Of a stretch of 64,000 nucleotides of DNA, positions 35,869 to 60,868 are shown piece after piece. Origin of the DNA: Methylobacterium sp. J-068. Lineage in GTDB: Bacteria > Pseudomonadota > Alphaproteobacteria > Rhizobiales > Beijerinckiaceae. Numbering within the stretch: the stretch's first letter is position 1; each line of letters begins with the position of its first letter. The DNA lies in the NCBI RefSeq assembly GCF_022829445.1, contig NZ_JAKSXY010000109.1, forward strand, positions 1-64,000, written 5' to 3'. The translations under genes were made by a program, and so were the position numbers. The notes beneath the pieces were generated by a model that was given only the letters and a program-made list of their open reading frames with translations, had not been told where the DNA came from and did not search any database.

Positions 35869-36552
35869 ATGTATGTCCTGGTCGACGAACGGCCCGCGGT
35901 CAATTCCGGCTACAAGGCCAGCTTCGATCGCGAAGGCATCTCCTCTCTGGGCCTCGATCCCCTGGAATTCACCCACTGGTTCCAGTCCTCCTCGCGCGTC
36001 GACCGGGAGGCGATCCAGGGCTTCCTCCTCGGCGACTTCGAGGGCCGCGCGAAATGCGCCAGCCTGATCCGCAAGATGTCGCGCGCGCCGATCATCGCCC
36101 TCAGCGAGGTCCGCTCCCTCGACCAGACATTGCAGCTGTTCGAGGCGGGCATCGACGACGTGCTGCCGAAACCCGTGCATATCCGCGAGATCCTCGCGCG
36201 CTCGGAGGCGATCTGGCGGCGCGTCAACGCGCAGGCCGCGCCCGCGCGGGACGTCGCGCCGGAGTCCGAGCGCCTGAAGGTGCATTTCGACGGACGCGAC
36301 CCCGAAGTGGACGGCGCGGTGCTGCCGCTGCCGCGCCGCGAGCGCCATATCCTCGAATGCCTGGTGCGCAATCGCGGCCGGCGCATGACGAAGGCGCAGA
36401 TCTACAACATCGTCTACGGCGTCTACAGCAACGGCGTCGAGGAGAGCGTGATCGAGGGGCACGTGAGCAAGCTGCGCAAGAAGCTCAGCCAGCGCCTCGG
36501 CTACGATCCGATCGAGGCCAAGCGCTTCATGGGATACACTTTCATCGGTTGA
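35869..36552 (+). CDS. ftcR: flagellar transcriptional regulator FtcR (OmpR-type)
   Basis: This is a 227-residue two-domain regulator. The receiver-like domain starts MYVLVDERPAVNSGYKASF; the usual acidic pair is degenerate, but FEAGIDDVLPKPVHIREIL is kept. The winged-helix DNA-binding domain shows LPLPRRERHILECLVRNRGR, VEESVIEGHVSKLRKKLSQR and KRFMGYTFIG, matching the Brucella/Sinorhizobium FtcR pattern. I chose the ATG at 35869 because GGAGG lies 6 nt upstream. FtcR is known in Brucella to activate flagellar genes. It is convergent with the transglycosylase gene. Confidence 0.93.
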   Translation: MYVLVDERPAVNSGYKASFDREGISSLGLDPLEFTHWFQSSSRVDREAIQGFLLGDFEGRAKCASLIRKMSRAPIIALSEVRSLDQTLQLFEAGIDDVLPKPVHIREILARSEAIWRRVNAQAAPARDVAPESERLKVHFDGRDPEVDGAVLPLPRRERHILECLVRNRGRRMTKAQIYNIVYGVYSNGVEESVIEGHVSKLRKKLSQRLGYDPIEAKRFMGYTFIG

Positions 36553-44626: not shown

Positions 44627-45298
44627 TCAATACGGGTGGCGGTCCGTCTTGTTCATCCAGGCCTCGTAGGCCTTCAGCCCGGTCTCGCGCTCGAAATTCT
44701 CACTGACCCGGATGCGGCGCTGATCCCAGGGCTTGGCGAAATCCTCGTACTGGAACGCGTCGTCGAAGCCGATCTTGCTCGTGTCCTTGAGGCTGGCGGC
44801 GAAGTAGACGTGATCGATGCGCGACCAGTAGATGGCGCTCATGCACATCGGGCACGGCGCGCCGTTGATGTAGATCTCGCAGCCCTTCAGCATCCTGGCC
44901 CGCTCGGTCACGGGGTCCGGGGAGCCGGGCTCGCGCGGGATCATCTCCAGGATCGTCCCGGCGCCGTACTCGCTGCCGAGCAGGGCCTTCGGGTTCAGCC
45001 GGGCGGAGGCATCCATGATGGCGGTGATCTCCGCATGGAAGACCGGGATGCCGGTCAGCAGGACACGGTTCTGGCCGCGCCCGATGATCTCCCCGTCCTT
45101 CACGATCACCGCTCCGAACGGGCCGCCCCACCCCTTCTCGACGGACTCGATCGCGAGCCGTGTCGCCTCCTCCATGAACGCCTTCTTGCCGGCTGGGACC
45201 GGGGCCGCCTGCGCGACGGCCCCCGGCGCCACGGCCATCGACATGCCGACCCCGACGGCGCTCGCCAGAAAGGCGCGCCGGCCCAGAACACCCGGCAT
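44627..45298 (-). CDS. Tat-exported nucleoside/cytosine deaminase-like protein
   Basis: This is a 223-residue zinc deaminase of the CDA/guanine-deaminase fold. Zinc ligands and the catalytic Glu are in VFHAEITAIM, and the second zinc site is APCPMCMSAIYWS. The N-terminus carries a twin-arginine signal (GRRAFLASAVGVGMSMAVAP, cleavage near 30), so it should be exported folded with metal. An upstream in-frame start at 45346 exists but would not improve the signal. It lies alone between fliF and fliP with an AT-rich, dyad-bearing leader. The substrate is probably a purine or pyrimidine base or an analogue. Confidence 0.88.
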   Translation of the reverse strand: MPGVLGRRAFLASAVGVGMSMAVAPGAVAQAAPVPAGKKAFMEEATRLAIESVEKGWGGPFGAVIVKDGEIIGRGQNRVLLTGIPVFHAEITAIMDASARLNPKALLGSEYGAGTILEMIPREPGSPDPVTERARMLKGCEIYINGAPCPMCMSAIYWSRIDHVYFAASLKDTSKIGFDDAFQYEDFAKPWDQRRIRVSENFERETGLKAYEAWMNKTDRHPY

Positions 45299-45364
45299 CG
45301 TACAATCGCCGGAATGTTCGGCCGAGCAGGAACAGGATCGAAACATTCAAGCTCTCCACAAATA

Positions 45365-51450: not shown

Positions 51451-51867
51451 TCAGGTTCGCAGGAGGTCGATGACGCTGGCGACCATGGCGCGAGCCTGCT
51501 TGATCACCTGCACGTTGGCTTCGAAGGAGCGGTTGGCCTCGCGGATGTCGGCCATCTCCAGCAACACGTTGACGTTGGGCATCTTCACGTTGCCGTCGGC
51601 ATCGGCCGCCGGGTTGCCGGGGTCGCGCTCGATGCGGAACGGCGCCTCGTCGGTGCCGATCTTCTGGAGCCGGACCGAGGTCCCGCCGGCGGCGCGGTCC
51701 AGCGCCGCCCGGAACGTCACGGTCTTGCGGGCATAGGGGTCGGCGCCCGGCCCGTCCCCGACGGATTGCGCGTTGGCGACGTTCTCGGCGGCGATGCGCA
51801 GGCGCAGGGACTGCGCCTCCATGCCGGCGCTGGCGAGCCGGGTCGAGGCGGCGAGCGGATCGATCAT
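51451..51867 (-). CDS. flgC: flagellar proximal rod protein FlgC
   Basis: This is a 138-residue rod protein. STRLASAGMEAQSLRLRIAAENVANAQS at the N-terminus (in part) and MPNVNVLLEMADIREANRSFEANVQVIKQA at the C-terminus (in part) are the family signature. Its ATG overlaps the flgB stop by one base. Confidence 0.96.
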   Translation of the reverse strand: MIDPLAASTRLASAGMEAQSLRLRIAAENVANAQSVGDGPGADPYARKTVTFRAALDRAAGGTSVRLQKIGTDEAPFRIERDPGNPAADADGNVKMPNVNVLLEMADIREANRSFEANVQVIKQARAMVASVIDLLRT

Positions 51868-52256
51868 CAGCTGCCCCTCAGGGCGGCTTTGAGCATCCGG
51901 TCGAAGGCCTTGGTGATGCCCATGTTGAGGTTGTGCTGGCTGCTGACCTCGCCGGCCTTGAGCATCTCCTGCTCCAGGCTGACCGAGCTCGAGGTCGAGA
52001 GCTGGTCCCAGGCCTCGGCGGCCGAGACCGGCTTCGTCGGGATGCGGTTCTCGCCCGCGGTGACGTGGGCCTGCTCCGTCATGGTCATGCCCATGGAGGC
52101 GCTGGTGCGCGCCATCACCTCGGAGAACGGCGCCACGTCCCGCGCCTTGTAGCCGGGCGTGTTGGCGTTCGCGACGTTGCTGGCGATCGTCGCTTGCCGC
52201 ACCGCGAGGTAGCGGGCCTGCTGCGAGGCCAGGTCGAAGAGGTAGACGCCTGTCAC
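51867..52256 (-). CDS. flgB: flagellar proximal rod protein FlgB
   Basis: This is a 129-residue rod protein. FDLASQQARYLAVRQATIASNVANANTPGYKARDVAPF near the N-terminus (in part) is typical of FlgB. The start codon is GTG, preceded by GGAG at six nt. It is the first gene of the flgB-to-fliP run and is divergent from the heparinase-like gene. Confidence 0.95.
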   Translation of the reverse strand: MTGVYLFDLASQQARYLAVRQATIASNVANANTPGYKARDVAPFSEVMARTSASMGMTMTEQAHVTAGENRIPTKPVSAAEAWDQLSTSSSVSLEQEMLKAGEVSSQHNLNMGITKAFDRMLKAALRGS

Positions 52257-52491
52257 GGCCGGCTCCGGTCCCGATCTTTCATGTTCGAGGCTTTAGGGAG
52301 CCAATCTTGTCCGAAGCTGACGGGGCTCGCGGAGCGACGGCCAGCTTGACAGGGCATGGCCTCGCCCCCTCATTGATCGGGCGGCCGCGCTCCGGTCCGA
52401 GAGCCGCCCTCCGTTCCGAGAACACGCGTCAAACACAGCCGATGTCCGATCCCTCGCCGCAGACCGGGGCCGCCCCTTCCGCGAGGCGGAC
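52257..52491. promoter_or_regulatory. divergent region between flgB and the heparinase-like gene
   Basis: These 235 nt should hold the promoter of the large rod/ring operon and of the lyase-like gene. A perfect TTGACA lies at 52346-52351 on the plus strand, but the hexamer 17 nt further (CTCATT) is a poor -10. I see no clear promoter for flgB. Confidence 0.35.
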
Positions 52492-55221
52492 ATGAGCGCG
52501 CGGATTCTCTTCCCCGACGCGGCCCGCTATGCGGCCGGGGCCGGTATCGGCCCCGGCGAGAGCGAGCATCTCGTCCCGGCCAAGAACCGCTGGTCGCGGG
52601 TGGTGCTGCCCTTCGCCGGCCTGACGCCGGAGGCGTGGTGCGGCTTGCGCTTCCGCCTCGCCTGGGATGCGGAGGAGACCGCCGGATCCGCCCTCGACTT
52701 CGCCCTGGCGGGGATCGACTTCCTGTCGGAGGATGGCTCCAGCCTCGATTTCGACCACGTGCCGGGCCTCGACCGGACGCTGCTCGATCCCCACGGCGCC
52801 TGGATCGTCGGCCCCACCCACCTGCCGGCCGAGACGCGCGGGACGCGCGTGGGTGTCGTCCACCTCGCCTTCCGGGTGCCGGCACCGGCGAGCCGGATCA
52901 CCGTGACGATCCGCTCCTGGCGCAACAGCCGGACCTTCGCAGTGTCCGAGGTCACGCTCACGCAGGGCGCGGAGGCCCCCCCCTCGCCCGCCGAGATTCC
53001 GCGCCTCCGGCACCGGCTCGGTCCCGAGGCGACGTGGGTCGAACAGGCCCTGGTGCCCGGTTGCGGCCTCGTGCTGCGCGGGCAGCTCCACACGCCGACC
53101 CCGAGCGCCCACGCGGCCCTCGCGCGCATCGTCTACCGGGATCGGCAGGGCGAGATCCTGCCGCCGCCCTATCCCGGAACCATCTCGGTGCCGGCGCTGG
53201 GCGCGCTCATCGACCTCTCGACCCATCAGCAGGCCCGCCGCTTCACCCTGGAGCTCCAGCCTCCGGCCGGCGCCGCGCGGGTGTCGGTCGGCTTCGCAAT
53301 CTGGGAATCCGGCGGCCCGGAGGTCGAACTCCTCGGCCTGCCCGAAATCGCCCTCGAGGATCGGATGCGGCTGCAGAGCCTGTGCGCCGACGATCTCCTC
53401 GATGCGACGGACTTCCTCGCCCGGCTGGCCGAGCGGCTGTCGCTCCCCGGCGCCGCCTTCGCGGGCTGGTGCCCTCAGCCGGACGCCGTGGCGGTCCTCC
53501 CGGCGGTGCTCGCGCGGGCCCGCGCGATCCAGCGCGGCCAGAGCCACCGCGCGGCCGGCCTCGACCGAACCCTGACCCTCGGATCGGCCCCGGCCTGGAC
53601 CCTGCCCGAGACCCCGGACTGGACCGAGGACCCGTTCCGCTCGGTGCCCTGGCGGCTCGAATACCAGTCGCTCTCCTGGCTCGGCGCGATCGCGGAGGCG
53701 CCGGGCGGCGGCACGACGGCCCTGAACCTCGCCCTATCTTGGTCGCGCGCCAATCCCTGGGGGGCACCGGCGGACGGGCTCGCCCTGCATCCGGCGGCGC
53801 TGAGCGCGCGCACCGAGAGCTTCGTGCGGCTCCTGGCCCGGGCGGGCAAGCCCGGCGGCCCGGCCTCCCTCACCCTGACGGGCGAGGCGGTGCGGCACGG
53901 CTTCGCCCTGGCCGAGATCGTCGGCCAGAACACCTTCGGCCGCTCGATCCATCAGGTCCAGGCGGCCGCGACCCTGATGCTGGTGGCCCGCGCCCTCCCG
54001 CTGCTGCCGCTCGCCGCGCATTGGCTGGCGCTGGCCCGCGGCGCCCTGGAATCCGGTGTCGCCCGCCTCATCGACGCGGACGGGCGCTTCTTCGACCCCT
54101 CCCCGCATCAGCGCCTCGAACTGCTCACCCTGCTGCGCGCGCTGAGCCTCGGCCTCGACCCCGAGGACGAAACCCAGGCGGCGGTGAAGACCCGGCTCGA
54201 CGGGGCGCTGGCGGCGGGGCTGCCTCGGGTCTCGGGCCTCCTCGACCCGGCCGGCCGGCTGCCGCCCTTCGGCGACACGCCCCACGGCGAGGACGAGGCC
54301 GGCTGGATCGGCCGGCTCGGCGCGGGCGCGAGCCGAGCCCTCGTGGCCGAGCGGTGGTCCGGCCAGGCGCGACCCCGGCGCGAGCGGCCGAGCCGGCCCG
54401 AGGCCCCGGCGGAACCGCTCAGCGGGCGCGTCGACCCGGCGGCGGGCATGATCGCCCTGCGCCACGACGCGCCGGGACGGGGCTGGGGGCACTTCGCCTG
54501 CACCTTCGCGAGCCAGGGCCAGGGACCGGGCCACCGCGACGCGGGCTCCTTCGTCTATGCCTGCGAGGGCGTGCGCTGGGTCGTCGAGGCGGGCGGTTCG
54601 GGTCAGGTCGAGACCGGGGCGGCGCGCCACCACCTGCTCTCGGAGGCCGGGCACAACGTGGCCGTGCCCGACCAGCGGGGGGCGGCGGGCGGCCCGGCCG
54701 CGTATCTCGGGGCGACCCGTCTGATCGGCGCGAGCGTCCACCGCCTCGCCACGCAGGTGCACGGGCCGGACATCGCGCACCGACGGGTCTTCCTCGTGCT
54801 CGACGATCTCTCGGGCCTCGCCGTGCTCGACCGCTTCGCCGTGGAATCCGGGCCGGTCGGCTTCGAGGGCACGGTCCACCTCTCGCCCGAGATCCTGCTG
54901 GCGCTCGCCGGCCCGCGCCGGGCGATGGCGCAGTCGGGCCGCGCGCGCCTCTCGCTCTCGCCGGTGACGGTGAGCGGACGCAGCGCCGGGCTGACGATCC
55001 AGAACGGCTGCAACGCCCATCCGGGCGGCCTGCGGGGCTTCGTCTGCGCCCCGGCGGGCGGCCTCCAGCCGACGAACGCGCTGCGCTACGCCTTCGCGAG
55101 CACGGGCGCGGGAAGCGTCGTCTGCGGCGGCCTCGCCCTCGCGGCCGATGCGGATGCCGACCGGCGGCTGACCGCCCTGCTGGCCGAGGATGCGCTCGCG
55201 CGGCTGCTGGCCGAGGCCTGA
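52492..55221 (+). CDS. heparinase II/III-family protein inside the flagellar cluster
   Basis: This is a 909-residue protein. The first 300 or so residues look beta-rich, like carbohydrate-binding modules (VVLPFAGLTPEAWCGLRFRL, ITVTIRSWRNSRTFAVSEVT). The middle (about 310-620) is helical, fitting an alpha/alpha toroid. The C-terminal part (about 650-880) is the heparinase II/III-like beta domain with GHRDAGSFVYACEGVRWVVE, where family members have a GHxHxD-type motif; here it reads GHRDAG. No signal peptide is visible, which is odd for a polysaccharide lyase. The ATG at 52492 has GAGGCGG just upstream. It may act on a surface polysaccharide or be a non-lyase relative. Confidence 0.7.
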   Translation: MSARILFPDAARYAAGAGIGPGESEHLVPAKNRWSRVVLPFAGLTPEAWCGLRFRLAWDAEETAGSALDFALAGIDFLSEDGSSLDFDHVPGLDRTLLDPHGAWIVGPTHLPAETRGTRVGVVHLAFRVPAPASRITVTIRSWRNSRTFAVSEVTLTQGAEAPPSPAEIPRLRHRLGPEATWVEQALVPGCGLVLRGQLHTPTPSAHAALARIVYRDRQGEILPPPYPGTISVPALGALIDLSTHQQARRFTLELQPPAGAARVSVGFAIWESGGPEVELLGLPEIALEDRMRLQSLCADDLLDATDFLARLAERLSLPGAAFAGWCPQPDAVAVLPAVLARARAIQRGQSHRAAGLDRTLTLGSAPAWTLPETPDWTEDPFRSVPWRLEYQSLSWLGAIAEAPGGGTTALNLALSWSRANPWGAPADGLALHPAALSARTESFVRLLARAGKPGGPASLTLTGEAVRHGFALAEIVGQNTFGRSIHQVQAAATLMLVARALPLLPLAAHWLALARGALESGVARLIDADGRFFDPSPHQRLELLTLLRALSLGLDPEDETQAAVKTRLDGALAAGLPRVSGLLDPAGRLPPFGDTPHGEDEAGWIGRLGAGASRALVAERWSGQARPRRERPSRPEAPAEPLSGRVDPAAGMIALRHDAPGRGWGHFACTFASQGQGPGHRDAGSFVYACEGVRWVVEAGGSGQVETGAARHHLLSEAGHNVAVPDQRGAAGGPAAYLGATRLIGASVHRLATQVHGPDIAHRRVFLVLDDLSGLAVLDRFAVESGPVGFEGTVHLSPEILLALAGPRRAMAQSGRARLSLSPVTVSGRSAGLTIQNGCNAHPGGLRGFVCAPAGGLQPTNALRYAFASTGAGSVVCGGLALAADADADRRLTALLAEDALARLLAEA

Positions 55222-55270: not shown

Positions 55271-55717
55271 TCAGGAGCGCACCTCGCGCTTGGCGACGAA
55301 GTTGAACTCTTCCACCAGCACGTCCTTCACTACGTCCGAGCCGAGGCGGACGTTGACCTGTTTGCGGATCTCGGCGAGGCGCTGGGTGACGTTGTAGCGG
55401 GACAGGCGTTTGAAATCGATCGCCGGGTCCGTGTAGATCTGTCGGAAGGTCTCGTCGACCACGAAGGCGTTCGGTGGCACCGAGAGCGTGTGCATCAGCC
55501 GCGCATCGGCGGTGAAGACCAGCACGGCGACGATGTAGCCCTGCACCTTTCCGTCGACGACCACCGGAACGTTGATGGGCGGCAGCTTCTGGTATTGCAG
55601 ACCTTCGAGGTAGGGCTCCTCCTTCTTGGCGAACAGCCCCGCACCCCAGGTCACCGCGCCGTAGCAGGACAGGATGGTGAGGCCGCAGATCCACAGGCCG
55701 GTGATCAGGATGCGCAT
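55271..55717 (-). CDS. FliL-like membrane protein in flagellar cluster
   Basis: This is a 148-residue protein with one N-terminal membrane segment (about 3-25, ILITGLWICGLTILSCYGAV). The periplasmic domain has PINVPVVVDGKVQGYIVAVLV and ends QRLAEIRKQVNVRLGSDVVKDVLVEEFNFV, a pattern that resembles the FliL C-terminal region. It is the last gene of the flhA-to-FlgN-like unit. It may support the stator or basal body. It is not the main FliL, which lies at 46339-46830. Confidence 0.65.
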   Translation of the reverse strand: MRILITGLWICGLTILSCYGAVTWGAGLFAKKEEPYLEGLQYQKLPPINVPVVVDGKVQGYIVAVLVFTADARLMHTLSVPPNAFVVDETFRQIYTDPAIDFKRLSRYNVTQRLAEIRKQVNVRLGSDVVKDVLVEEFNFVAKREVRS

Positions 55718-60222: not shown

Positions 60223-60450
60223 ATGTCCGAGTTTCGCCTGCAGATCCGCTCGGCGCGGGCCATGATCTGGCGGGCGCCGGACGCGCTCGAGACCCGCCTG
60301 CTCGCCGAGGCCATACAGATCGCCGACCGTCTCGCCGGTGCCTGCCGCCGCACCGCCGCATCCAGCCGGGACGCGACCCGGAACTGGGTGGTCGAAATCT
60401 TGGACGAGTCGAACGGAGTCTTCTACCGGTTCCCCGTCTCCGGGTCCTGA
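60223..60450 (+). CDS. small protein of unknown function
   Basis: This is a 75-residue protein beginning MSEFRLQIRSARAMIWRAPD. It has one amphipathic helix (ALETRLLAEAIQIADRLAGA) and a C-terminal strand pair (NWVVEILDESNGVFYRFPV). I chose the ATG at 60223 because GAGG lies five nt upstream. It is divergent from flhA. Composition is coding-like. I do not recognise the family, and a flagellar role is not implied by more than position. Confidence 0.6.
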   Translation: MSEFRLQIRSARAMIWRAPDALETRLLAEAIQIADRLAGACRRTAASSRDATRNWVVEILDESNGVFYRFPVSGS

Positions 60451-60583
60451 ACCGGCTCCATCCACGCGCCTCTTCGCGCGAGGCCTCGACTCCGTGCATC
60501 GAGAAGCGCCACCTCGGCGTTACCAGGACGTTTTCGTCGTCTCGATTCTCCCATCCTCACGATTCGAAGGTACCCGCGTTCCC

Positions 60584-60868
60584 ATGCTCGATGCTCCCAT
60601 GCCCGATCTCCGCATCGCCCTCCTCGCCCTCGGCGCGCTCCTCGTTCCGGCGGCCGCGAGCGCCGAGCCCACGCCGATCCGCGAACTCCTCAAACTGTCC
60701 TGCACCGGCGACTACCTGGAGCATTGCAGCATGCACCCCCCCGGCGGCCCGGAGGTCGAGGCCTGCTTCAAGGCCAATATCCGGAAGCTCTCGCCGCCCT
60801 GTGCCCAGGCCATCAATGCCTACCGGCGCCAGAAGAAGTCCGGACAGCACACCTCGTCGGCGCGCTGA
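60584..60868 (+). CDS. small secreted Cys-containing protein
   Basis: This is a 94-residue protein with a Sec signal peptide (about residues 6-28, AAASAEP). The mature part has four Cys in the pattern C-x8-C-x13-C-x11-C (KLSCTGDYLEHC, VEACFKANIRKLSPPC), like a single cysteine-rich repeat, so two disulfides are likely in the periplasm. The start may be the ATG at 60584 or 60599. It stands between the small gene at 60223 and fliQ. Role unknown. Confidence 0.7.
   Translation: MLDAPMPDLRIALLALGALLVPAAASAEPTPIRELLKLSCTGDYLEHCSMHPPGGPEVEACFKANIRKLSPPCAQAINAYRRQKKSGQHTSSAR

Follow-up and report, generated by a model that had tools for sequence, protein, structure and literature searches.

A heparinase II/III-fold protein co-inherited with one flagellar system in Methylobacterium

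The window analysed here, a stretch of 64,000 nucleotides from Methylobacterium sp. J-068, carries within a flagellar region a frame of 909 open codons with an ATG start, hereafter HEPAR. The gene, its surroundings and the domains of its product are located as follows.

52492..55221, + strand: HEPAR, gene for a heparinase II/III-fold protein of 909 aa (open frame, PF07940 above cut-off, purifying selection, relatives in three genera)
51867..52256, - strand: flgB, divergent neighbour of HEPAR (translation and shared context)
55271..55717, - strand: h148, a 148-aa protein convergent with HEPAR and the next gene downstream (translation and shared context)
52345..52375, + strand: conserved promoter-like element CTTGACAG-N17-TCATTG (shared by relatives between flgB and HEPAR; ends 116 bp before the start codon)
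52492..52986, + strand: residues 1-165, beta-sandwich like that of carbohydrate-binding modules (CBMs) (separate model, VIA, conservation)
52987..53361, + strand: residues 166-290, second beta-rich domain with 12 invariant positions (models and conservation; barely covered by the fold search)
53389..54291, + strand: residues 300-600, predicted helical toroid like Hepar_II_III_N (PF16889 in relatives, VIA, alignments to HepC and L145)
54418..55146, + strand: residues 643-885, C-terminal beta-sandwich (PF07940, alignment columns)

We take the gene at 51867..52256 to be flgB because of its sequence features and its place in the operon, rather than from a family search. On the other side, h148, which has no Pfam match, is the member closest to HEPAR of a block that includes flgN-, flgJ-, fliJ-, fliR- and flhA-like genes. 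Coordinates and strands confirm the placement given in a preliminary description of this DNA, namely between flgB and the flhA block, divergent from flgB (51867-52256, -) and convergent with the block running from h148 (from 55271, -) to flhA. The region also holds formaldehyde-pathway, TonB-receptor-like and MFS-like genes, named by eye.

HEPAR is a real gene and more than a chance frame, since it has near-full-length matches within the genus, keeps its length in relatives at 34-42% identity, and shows dN/dS values of 0.18-0.35 (seven pairs). It is under purifying selection, and its invariant residues persist down to about 35% identity; the corresponding dN/dS values are 0.03-0.07 for FlhA and about 0.04 for h148. 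No ATG, GTG or TTG lies upstream of the start codon after the preceding stop and no hydrophobic N-terminal stretch was seen by eye, in agreement with the earlier remark that a signal peptide is not visible. The structural model places a confident beta-strand from residue 4, with a mean pLDDT of 85 over the first block of 10 residues and 95 over the second.

Of the 19 main-clade genes, 17 have CTTGACA within 350 bp upstream, against 0 of the 12 others, and the segment at 52345..52375 is a candidate promoter element. Its pattern has a single match in the whole genome, and a genome-wide regulon motif was therefore rejected.

The product matches PF07940 over residues 671-842 (26.8 bits, E 4.5e-6, curated cut-off 24), as do 27 of 30 aligned family members at E <= 0.1. 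The N-terminal toroid family PF16889 has no match in the window protein and is matched in 6/30 members (best 2.2e-6), and the structural match covers the toroid. Using the HEPAR model (mean pLDDT 86.6), Foldseek returned 5jmd, 4mmi and 4mmh with E values of 3e-17 to 8e-17, and comparison with 4mmi gave a VIA Z of 32.0 (model residues 304-909, 542 residues aligned, rmsd 7.4). The preliminary assignment to the heparinase II/III fold is thus borne out by both the PF07940 score and the structural match to heparinase III, and the overall fold is modelled as a helical toroid followed by a beta-sandwich. Nothing was returned by an NCBIfam search or a single-sequence PDB search. A PF13622 thioesterase match, under its cut-off in HEPAR and at E <= 0.1 in 5/30 members, was discounted as a chance match to a part rich in beta-strands.

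Ahead of the toroid, a separate model of residues 1-292 reached a pLDDT of 92.1. Residues 1-165 resemble CBM15, CBM16, CBM22 and an alginate-binding CBM at VIA Z 10-11, a range in which Eph receptor domains score equally, the sandwich shape being common; no Pfam CBM family was found among the domain matches of HEPAR and its relatives. Fifteen positions of this segment are invariant in 30 relatives (R33, R36, W49, D69, G74, D81, D86, G92, L93, D99, F127, P130, R141, S142 and N145).

The residues that carry out beta-elimination seem to be largely missing from HEPAR. The catalytic positions were mapped by sequence-profile alignments to HepC (weak, E 0.1) and to L145, a canonical member with intact motifs (E 4.6e-5, probability 69%). 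The position of the catalytic Asn is I486 in both alignments and is occupied by L, I, R, V, P or M in 30/30 relatives, none of which has an Asn within 482-490. The catalytic Tyr position (near 538-541) is Q540 in the HepC alignment and falls in a 3-residue deletion in the L145 alignment; no Tyr follows the E-x-S motif at the aligned place in the window protein, while in six of the 30 relatives position 538, which precedes the HepC-aligned place by two residues, is a Tyr. The canonical motif of the fold is H-G-H-x-D, read as HGHAD in L145. The window protein reads P-G-H-R-D, so that only the first His is missing, P679 replacing it while H681 and D683 are kept. The canonical form given earlier, a GHxHxD-like motif reading GHRDAG in this protein, is corrected to HGHxD. 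This first His is absent in 25/30 relatives and kept in 5/30 and, as with the Tyr at 538, such variation indicates that members differ in their degeneracy.

H681, H721, N722, H763 and R765 are kept in 30/30, D683 in 29/30, and position 699 is Asp or Glu in 30/30 (E699 in the window), so the putative metal-site residues (H681, E699, H721) are kept. H469 and E475 are likewise invariant, and H539 is His in 26/30. Beside the lost Asn, H487 is retained in the window protein, aligned with the His of NNH, and is His in 12/30. A His beside the catalytic Asn matters in some lyases of this fold, such as Alg17c (H202), and the Alg17c H202L mutant structure is among the matches to the HEPAR model; the retained H487 thus weighs somewhat against a loss of catalysis.

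Relatives of HEPAR were found in 72/111 genomes of the window's genus, 58 of these 72 having a single match that spans at least 838 of the 909 residues, and in two other Beijerinckiaceae genera, g18 and g32 (our guess is that g32 may be Microvirga). Occurrence in this strain only is thereby ruled out, the motility neighbourhood having been found in three genera. Among the genomes sampled, full-length relatives were seen in Beijerinckiaceae only (3/43 genera), and the conservation across Hyphomicrobiales that the preliminary description suggested checking was not found there. Searches of 397 order genomes gave matches in the window's genus only (four per search), and of 337 class genomes the window's own match and a partial 24% match in G1022; relatives may have been missed here since at most two candidates were scored per genome, and g18 and g32 are not necessarily in the order sample. 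These samples thus give no support for a broad distribution across the order or class.

Within the genus there are two FlgI types, and HEPAR goes with the window type: it is present in 70/71 genomes with this FlgI (broken copies counted as present) and in 2/40 without it (G159 and G175), where both copies are broken and lie beside cluster remnants. Two genomes, G245 with a broken copy and G247 with a match split between two frames, keep window-type FlgI, so HEPAR may be dispensable there. Distances between HEPAR sequences track those between FlgI sequences (r 0.95 over 36 genomes), with HEPAR evolving about four times faster. All 59 neighbourhoods examined contain a flagellar or chemotaxis gene no more than 5 kb from HEPAR, and 47 contain one on both sides. 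Four arrangements occur.

Arrangement 1: flgB / HEPAR / h148
Arrangement 2: FtcR-like regulator / HEPAR / h148
Arrangement 3: flgB / HEPAR / cheZ-cheY-cheW-cheA
Arrangement 4: cheA-W-Y-B-R-globin MCP / HEPAR

In genus g18, HEPAR sits in a chemotaxis operon 31-33 kb from FlgI. The placement of HEPAR with motility genes is thus conserved in three genera, and its lasting linkage to and co-inheritance with one flagellar system mean that it marks one of the two systems in these genomes. Methylobacterium species are described as having a subpolar and, in some, also a lateral flagellar system (PMC6406911), which fits the two FlgI types found here; by analogy with that account, the window-type system would be the lateral one. 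Of 292 sequenced Rhizobiales species, 62.3% have a lateral flagellum according to the same source, whose main text mentions heparinase 0 times. As HEPAR was found in the order samples only in the window's genus, a lateral flagellum in general can apparently do without it. No paper on the HEPAR gene was among the literature matches listed.

The best structural matches, heparinase III (HepC of Pedobacter heparinus, PDB 4mmh/4mmi, and BT4657, 5jmd/5jmf), share the toroid and C-terminal beta-sandwich with HEPAR at 12-14% identity. HEPAR differs from them by an N-terminal extension of about 300 residues, by the absence of Asn and Tyr at the aligned catalytic positions and by having no visible signal peptide. 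The same fold is found in human dermatan sulfate epimerase 1 (DS-epi1, PDB 6hzn; VIA Z 21.3), where the metal is bound by His452 and Glu470 (PMC8006597), similar to H681 and E699; no Tyr matching those used by DS-epi1 is seen in the HEPAR alignments, which were to HepC and L145. HepP of Pseudomonas aeruginosa PA14, a bacterial heparinase II/III-family protein, is linked to biofilm pellicle formation but, unlike what we propose for HEPAR, is reported to act on heparin, and swimming was normal in its mutant (PMC5732420).

We tentatively propose, at somewhat less than an even chance, that HEPAR is a degenerate enzyme that stays in the cytoplasm, binds glycan and assists the lateral flagellum or the chemotaxis machinery that goes with it. 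The protein would have a PL12-like heparinase II/III superfamily lyase fold in which most beta-elimination residues were lost and metal-site residues retained, with the conserved N-terminal module of CBM-like shape supplying putative glycan binding. It would most likely bind, rather than cut, an acidic polysaccharide made by the cell or a precursor of it, and could for example sense or restrain surface polysaccharide as cells turn motile. The cutting residues seem mostly lost and relatives adjoin swimming genes in three genera, so HEPAR may well be a sugar-binding swimming helper and not an ordinary degrading enzyme. The cytoplasmic location, glycan binding, the glycan concerned and any effect on motility are what we infer from these features. 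Of the three roles suggested in the preliminary description, lost catalysis is best supported by the alignments (Asn, Tyr and first His replaced), action on a polysaccharide precursor is possible as binding or non-canonical chemistry, and modification of a surface layer is without support, as no export signal is visible.

An active enzyme with changed chemistry, cleaving or epimerising a cytoplasmic or lipid-linked polysaccharide precursor via the conserved His and metal instead of Asn/Tyr, is a less likely alternative. Purifying selection, the invariance of H469, E475, H681, H721, H763 and R765, the near-invariant H539 and the retained H487 are what such an enzyme would show, and DS-epi1 demonstrates that this fold can epimerise; however, DS-epi1 itself relies on His205, Tyr261 and Tyr473, all reported to be critical for its activity (PMC8006597), whereas the Asn, Tyr and first-His positions of the window protein are replaced or deleted. 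We doubt that HEPAR is a bystander of unrelated function, held in the region by block inheritance. The region does tolerate the unrelated inserts named above, any linked gene would trivially co-occur and track distances, and G245 lost the HEPAR frame while retaining FlgI, but HEPAR keeps the company of motility genes in all four arrangements, even in the distant g18 chemotaxis operon, and the two genomes that hold it without window-type FlgI have broken copies by cluster remnants.

Flagellar export substrates have disordered signals, whereas the N-terminus of HEPAR is predicted to be ordered from residue 4. This, the replaced catalytic residues and the company of chemotaxis genes in g18 make it improbable that the protein leaves through the flagellar type III apparatus to act on capsule or cell-surface glycan, clearing a path for filaments, even though it lies among flagellar export genes in Methylobacterium and has no visible Sec signal. 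Least credible is a now functionless, decaying remnant of an acquired lyase: constraint is looser than on FlhA and a few genomes (G245, G175, G159) carry broken copies, yet most genus matches span the protein in one piece, invariant residues survive deep divergence and dN/dS is well below 1.

If the degenerate accessory that we favour is real, a lyase fold has been recruited to assist motility in Methylobacterium and its relatives, bacteria that commonly live with plants, and a connection of surface polysaccharide with flagella becomes open to testing. A more specific version, in which a Beijerinckiaceae-restricted pseudolyase with a sugar-binding head is an intracellular polysaccharide sensor wired to the lateral flagellum/chemotaxis circuit, is rather unlikely; if true, it would let these bacteria switch directly between production of surface polysaccharide and swimming. 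The label 'heparinase II/III family protein' would imply a degrading activity that the HEPAR sequence does not clearly support. The same genome encodes a second PF07940 protein (contig 112, L001 574-2310; 179.2 bits), which like HEPAR has no signal peptide by eye but is shorter (578 aa) and lies on a contig other than that of the flagellar region.

The gene for HEPAR, a protein of heparinase II/III-type fold, lies among flagellar genes:

51867-52256, minus strand: flgB, divergent from HEPAR
52345-52375: promoter-like element CTTGACAG-N17-TCATTG
52492-55221, plus strand: HEPAR, 909 residues
55271-55717, minus strand: h148, 148 residues, first gene of a convergent minus-strand block

Beyond h148, the block continues with flgN-, flgJ-, fliJ-, fliR- and flhA-like genes. 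A Pfam search of four of its proteins confirmed flgJ (rod-binding, PF10135) and gave no match for the h148, flgN-like and fliJ-like proteins; the other flagellar gene names are based on our reading of sequence and gene order. h148 is an unannotated flagellar-cluster protein, which recurs adjoining HEPAR in the window's genus (g1) and in the Beijerinckiaceae genus g32, with a dN/dS of about 0.04 (three pairs). The best named relatives of HEPAR belong to Methylobacterium sp. Leaf strains and M. goesingense (76-79% protein identity).

The heparinase II/III-type fold is secure. HEPAR matches PF07940 over residues 671-842 in Pfam (26.8 bits, cut-off 24), as do 27 of 30 aligned members (best 1.7e-14), and six of the 30 match the N-terminal toroid family PF16889, for which the Pfam search gave no match in the window's HEPAR. 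Foldseek with the AlphaFold model (mean pLDDT 86.6, pTM 0.88) returned heparinase III structures at the top (E 3e-17 to 8e-17), and VIA-align scored model residues 304-909 at Z 32.0 against 4mmi, the heparinase III of Pedobacter heparinus (HepC) (542 aligned, rmsd 7.4, 13% identity). By eye, no signal peptide is visible in HEPAR. The same genome (G000) encodes a second PF07940 protein of 578 aa on contig 112 (L001 574-2310; 179.2 bits), by eye likewise without one.

HEPAR was matched in 72 of 111 genomes of the genus. In 58 of these a single match covers 838 or more of the 909 residues; in the other 14 the match is broken, in pieces, or truncated where a contig ends (e.g. G175, G245, G159, G251). 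With the window's HEPAR as query, 11 of 149 genomes in a family sample had a match (3/43 genera); a relative as query found 68 of 397 in a larger one, again in 3/43 genera (27 g1, 38 g32 and 3 from g18, another genus of the family). Of the 397 genomes in an order sample, 4 had a match, each belonging to the window's genus, and a class sample (337 genomes) yielded the window's genome and one partial 24% match; at most two candidates per genome were scored in the large samples, so that distant relatives can be missed.

Not counting the window's genome, 112 genomes had a hit. To describe the surroundings of these relatives, we used 11-20 kb stretches from 59 of them (33/71 g1, 23/38 g32, 3/3 g18), chosen for spread of identity and not for context, with broken copies included; one contig of G181, a genome without HEPAR, was also fetched and excluded from the count. 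HEPAR is linked to motility genes: all 59 neighbourhoods contain a flagellar or chemotaxis gene no more than 5 kb away, and 47 contain one on both sides within that distance, a few second-side matches being weak (L070, L080, L083; 46-47 bits). Ten of the 33 g1 loci have such a gene within 5 kb on the flgB side only. The gene orders are:

flgB, HEPAR, h148
FtcR-like regulator, HEPAR, h148
flgB, HEPAR, cheZ-cheY-cheW-cheA
g18: cheA-cheW-cheY-cheB-cheR-globin MCP-HEPAR-Inh-domain protein, all in one direction

HEPAR of g18 is 31-33 kb from FlgI. Unrelated genes, named by eye, are also inserted between HEPAR and h148 (formaldehyde pathway; L052-L054) or between flgB and HEPAR (TonB-receptor-like; L051), and MFS-like genes lie upstream of HEPAR in L014 and L015.

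FlgI was matched in every one of the 111 genus genomes, with at least 70% identity to the window's FlgI in 71; the remaining 40 have only a more distant type, at about 55% among the matches listed. HEPAR is found in 70 of the 71 genomes with window-type FlgI and in 2 of the 40 without. In G181, the one genome with this FlgI where HEPAR was not found, the 4247-base contig (L143) stops short of the HEPAR place, and the two converse cases (G159, G175) hold broken HEPAR pieces adjoining cluster remnants. Window-type FlgI is kept in G245, where HEPAR is broken, and in G247, where its match is split between two frames; both count against a strict HEPAR-FlgI bond. Because HEPAR is linked to the cluster, co-occurrence alone is weak functional evidence, and a linked bystander could show it too; the changes of arrangement are stronger evidence of function, and we consider a bystander improbable. 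Since PMC6406911 reports a subpolar flagellar system in Methylobacterium species and in some also a lateral one, we take the lateral system to be the most likely identity of the window's cluster.

Catalytic positions were mapped through sequence alignments and not by coordinate superposition. The 30-member profile aligned weakly with HepC (E 0.1) and better with L145 (hhalign E 4.6e-5, probability 69%), a relative's protein with intact NNH, E-x-S-x-x-Y and HGHAD motifs. In both alignments the Asn of HepC that we take to be catalytic falls on I486; this position is L, I, R, V, P or M in 30/30 members, and Asn is absent from 482-490 in all of them. The catalytic Tyr aligns with Q540 (HepC) or with a three-residue deletion (L145); six of the 30 members, a distant Methylobacterium clade, have Tyr at 538 and may have kept it. 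Heparinase II/Alg17c mutants at H202 and Y257/Y258 are named in the Foldseek structure listing. In place of the first His of HGHxD the window's HEPAR has P679, and 5/30 members have His there. H681, H721, N722, H763, R765 and an acidic residue (Asp or Glu) at 699 are kept in 30/30 and D683 in 29/30. PMC8006597 gives His452, Glu470 and Asn481 as metal ligands of human dermatan sulfate epimerase 1, and His205, Tyr261 and Tyr473 as its chemistry; by this yardstick HEPAR has retained much of a metal site and lost most of the chemistry. The His after the catalytic Asn aligns with H487 and is kept in the window's HEPAR and 12/30 members, a point against full loss of catalysis. An enzyme with other chemistry seems to us rather unlikely.

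HEPAR residues 1-290, modelled separately (pLDDT 92.1), form two beta-rich domains. The first has a shape similar to that of CBM15, CBM16, CBM22 and an alginate-binding CBM (Z 10-11), a score equalled by Eph receptor domains, so that the safe description goes no further than 'CBM-like sandwich'. Invariant positions are denser in these two domains (15 in 165 residues for the first, 12 in 125 for the second) than in the rest of the protein, where the toroid has 20 in 301 and the C-terminal domain has 16 in 243; mean column entropy is nearly alike across domains (1.54-1.73). We tentatively favour a HEPAR that binds a polysaccharide and would serve the lateral flagellum. Literature searches that covered few subscription papers returned no paper on such a gene among the matches listed.

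HEPAR is under selection, with dN/dS of 0.18-0.35 (seven pairs) compared with 0.03-0.07 for FlhA (three). Its protein distances track those of FlgI (r 0.95, 36 genomes), and it evolves about four times faster. Of 19 main-clade HEPAR genes, 17 have CTTGACA within 350 bp upstream, compared with none of 12 others, and in L014 it stays with HEPAR though the 10 kb upstream hold no flgB match. The full element pattern has one match in the window's genome, and the element at 52345-52375 may be HEPAR's own sigma-70-type promoter.

Other genes near these loci were also noted. Upstream of HEPAR in L014 (4331-9474) are, by eye, glycosyltransferase-like, polysaccharide-flippase-like and chemoreceptor-like genes, and the protein after HEPAR in the g18 chemotaxis operon (L074 7563-8273, minus strand) carries a protease-inhibitor Inh domain (PF02974). 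Between fliF and fliP, the window encodes a PF00383 deaminase (44627-45346, minus strand) whose N-terminus by eye looks twin-arginine-like (RRAFLAS), matched in relative L018 and not in L021. A small ORF with several cysteines, possibly secreted, lies between flhA and fliQ on the opposite strand (within 60338-60868, plus strand). Two FtcR-like regulators flank the flagellar region, at 35869-36546 (plus strand) in the window and, beyond it, at 72433-73101 (minus strand) of contig 29, the first 60% and the second 57% identical to the L068 copy.
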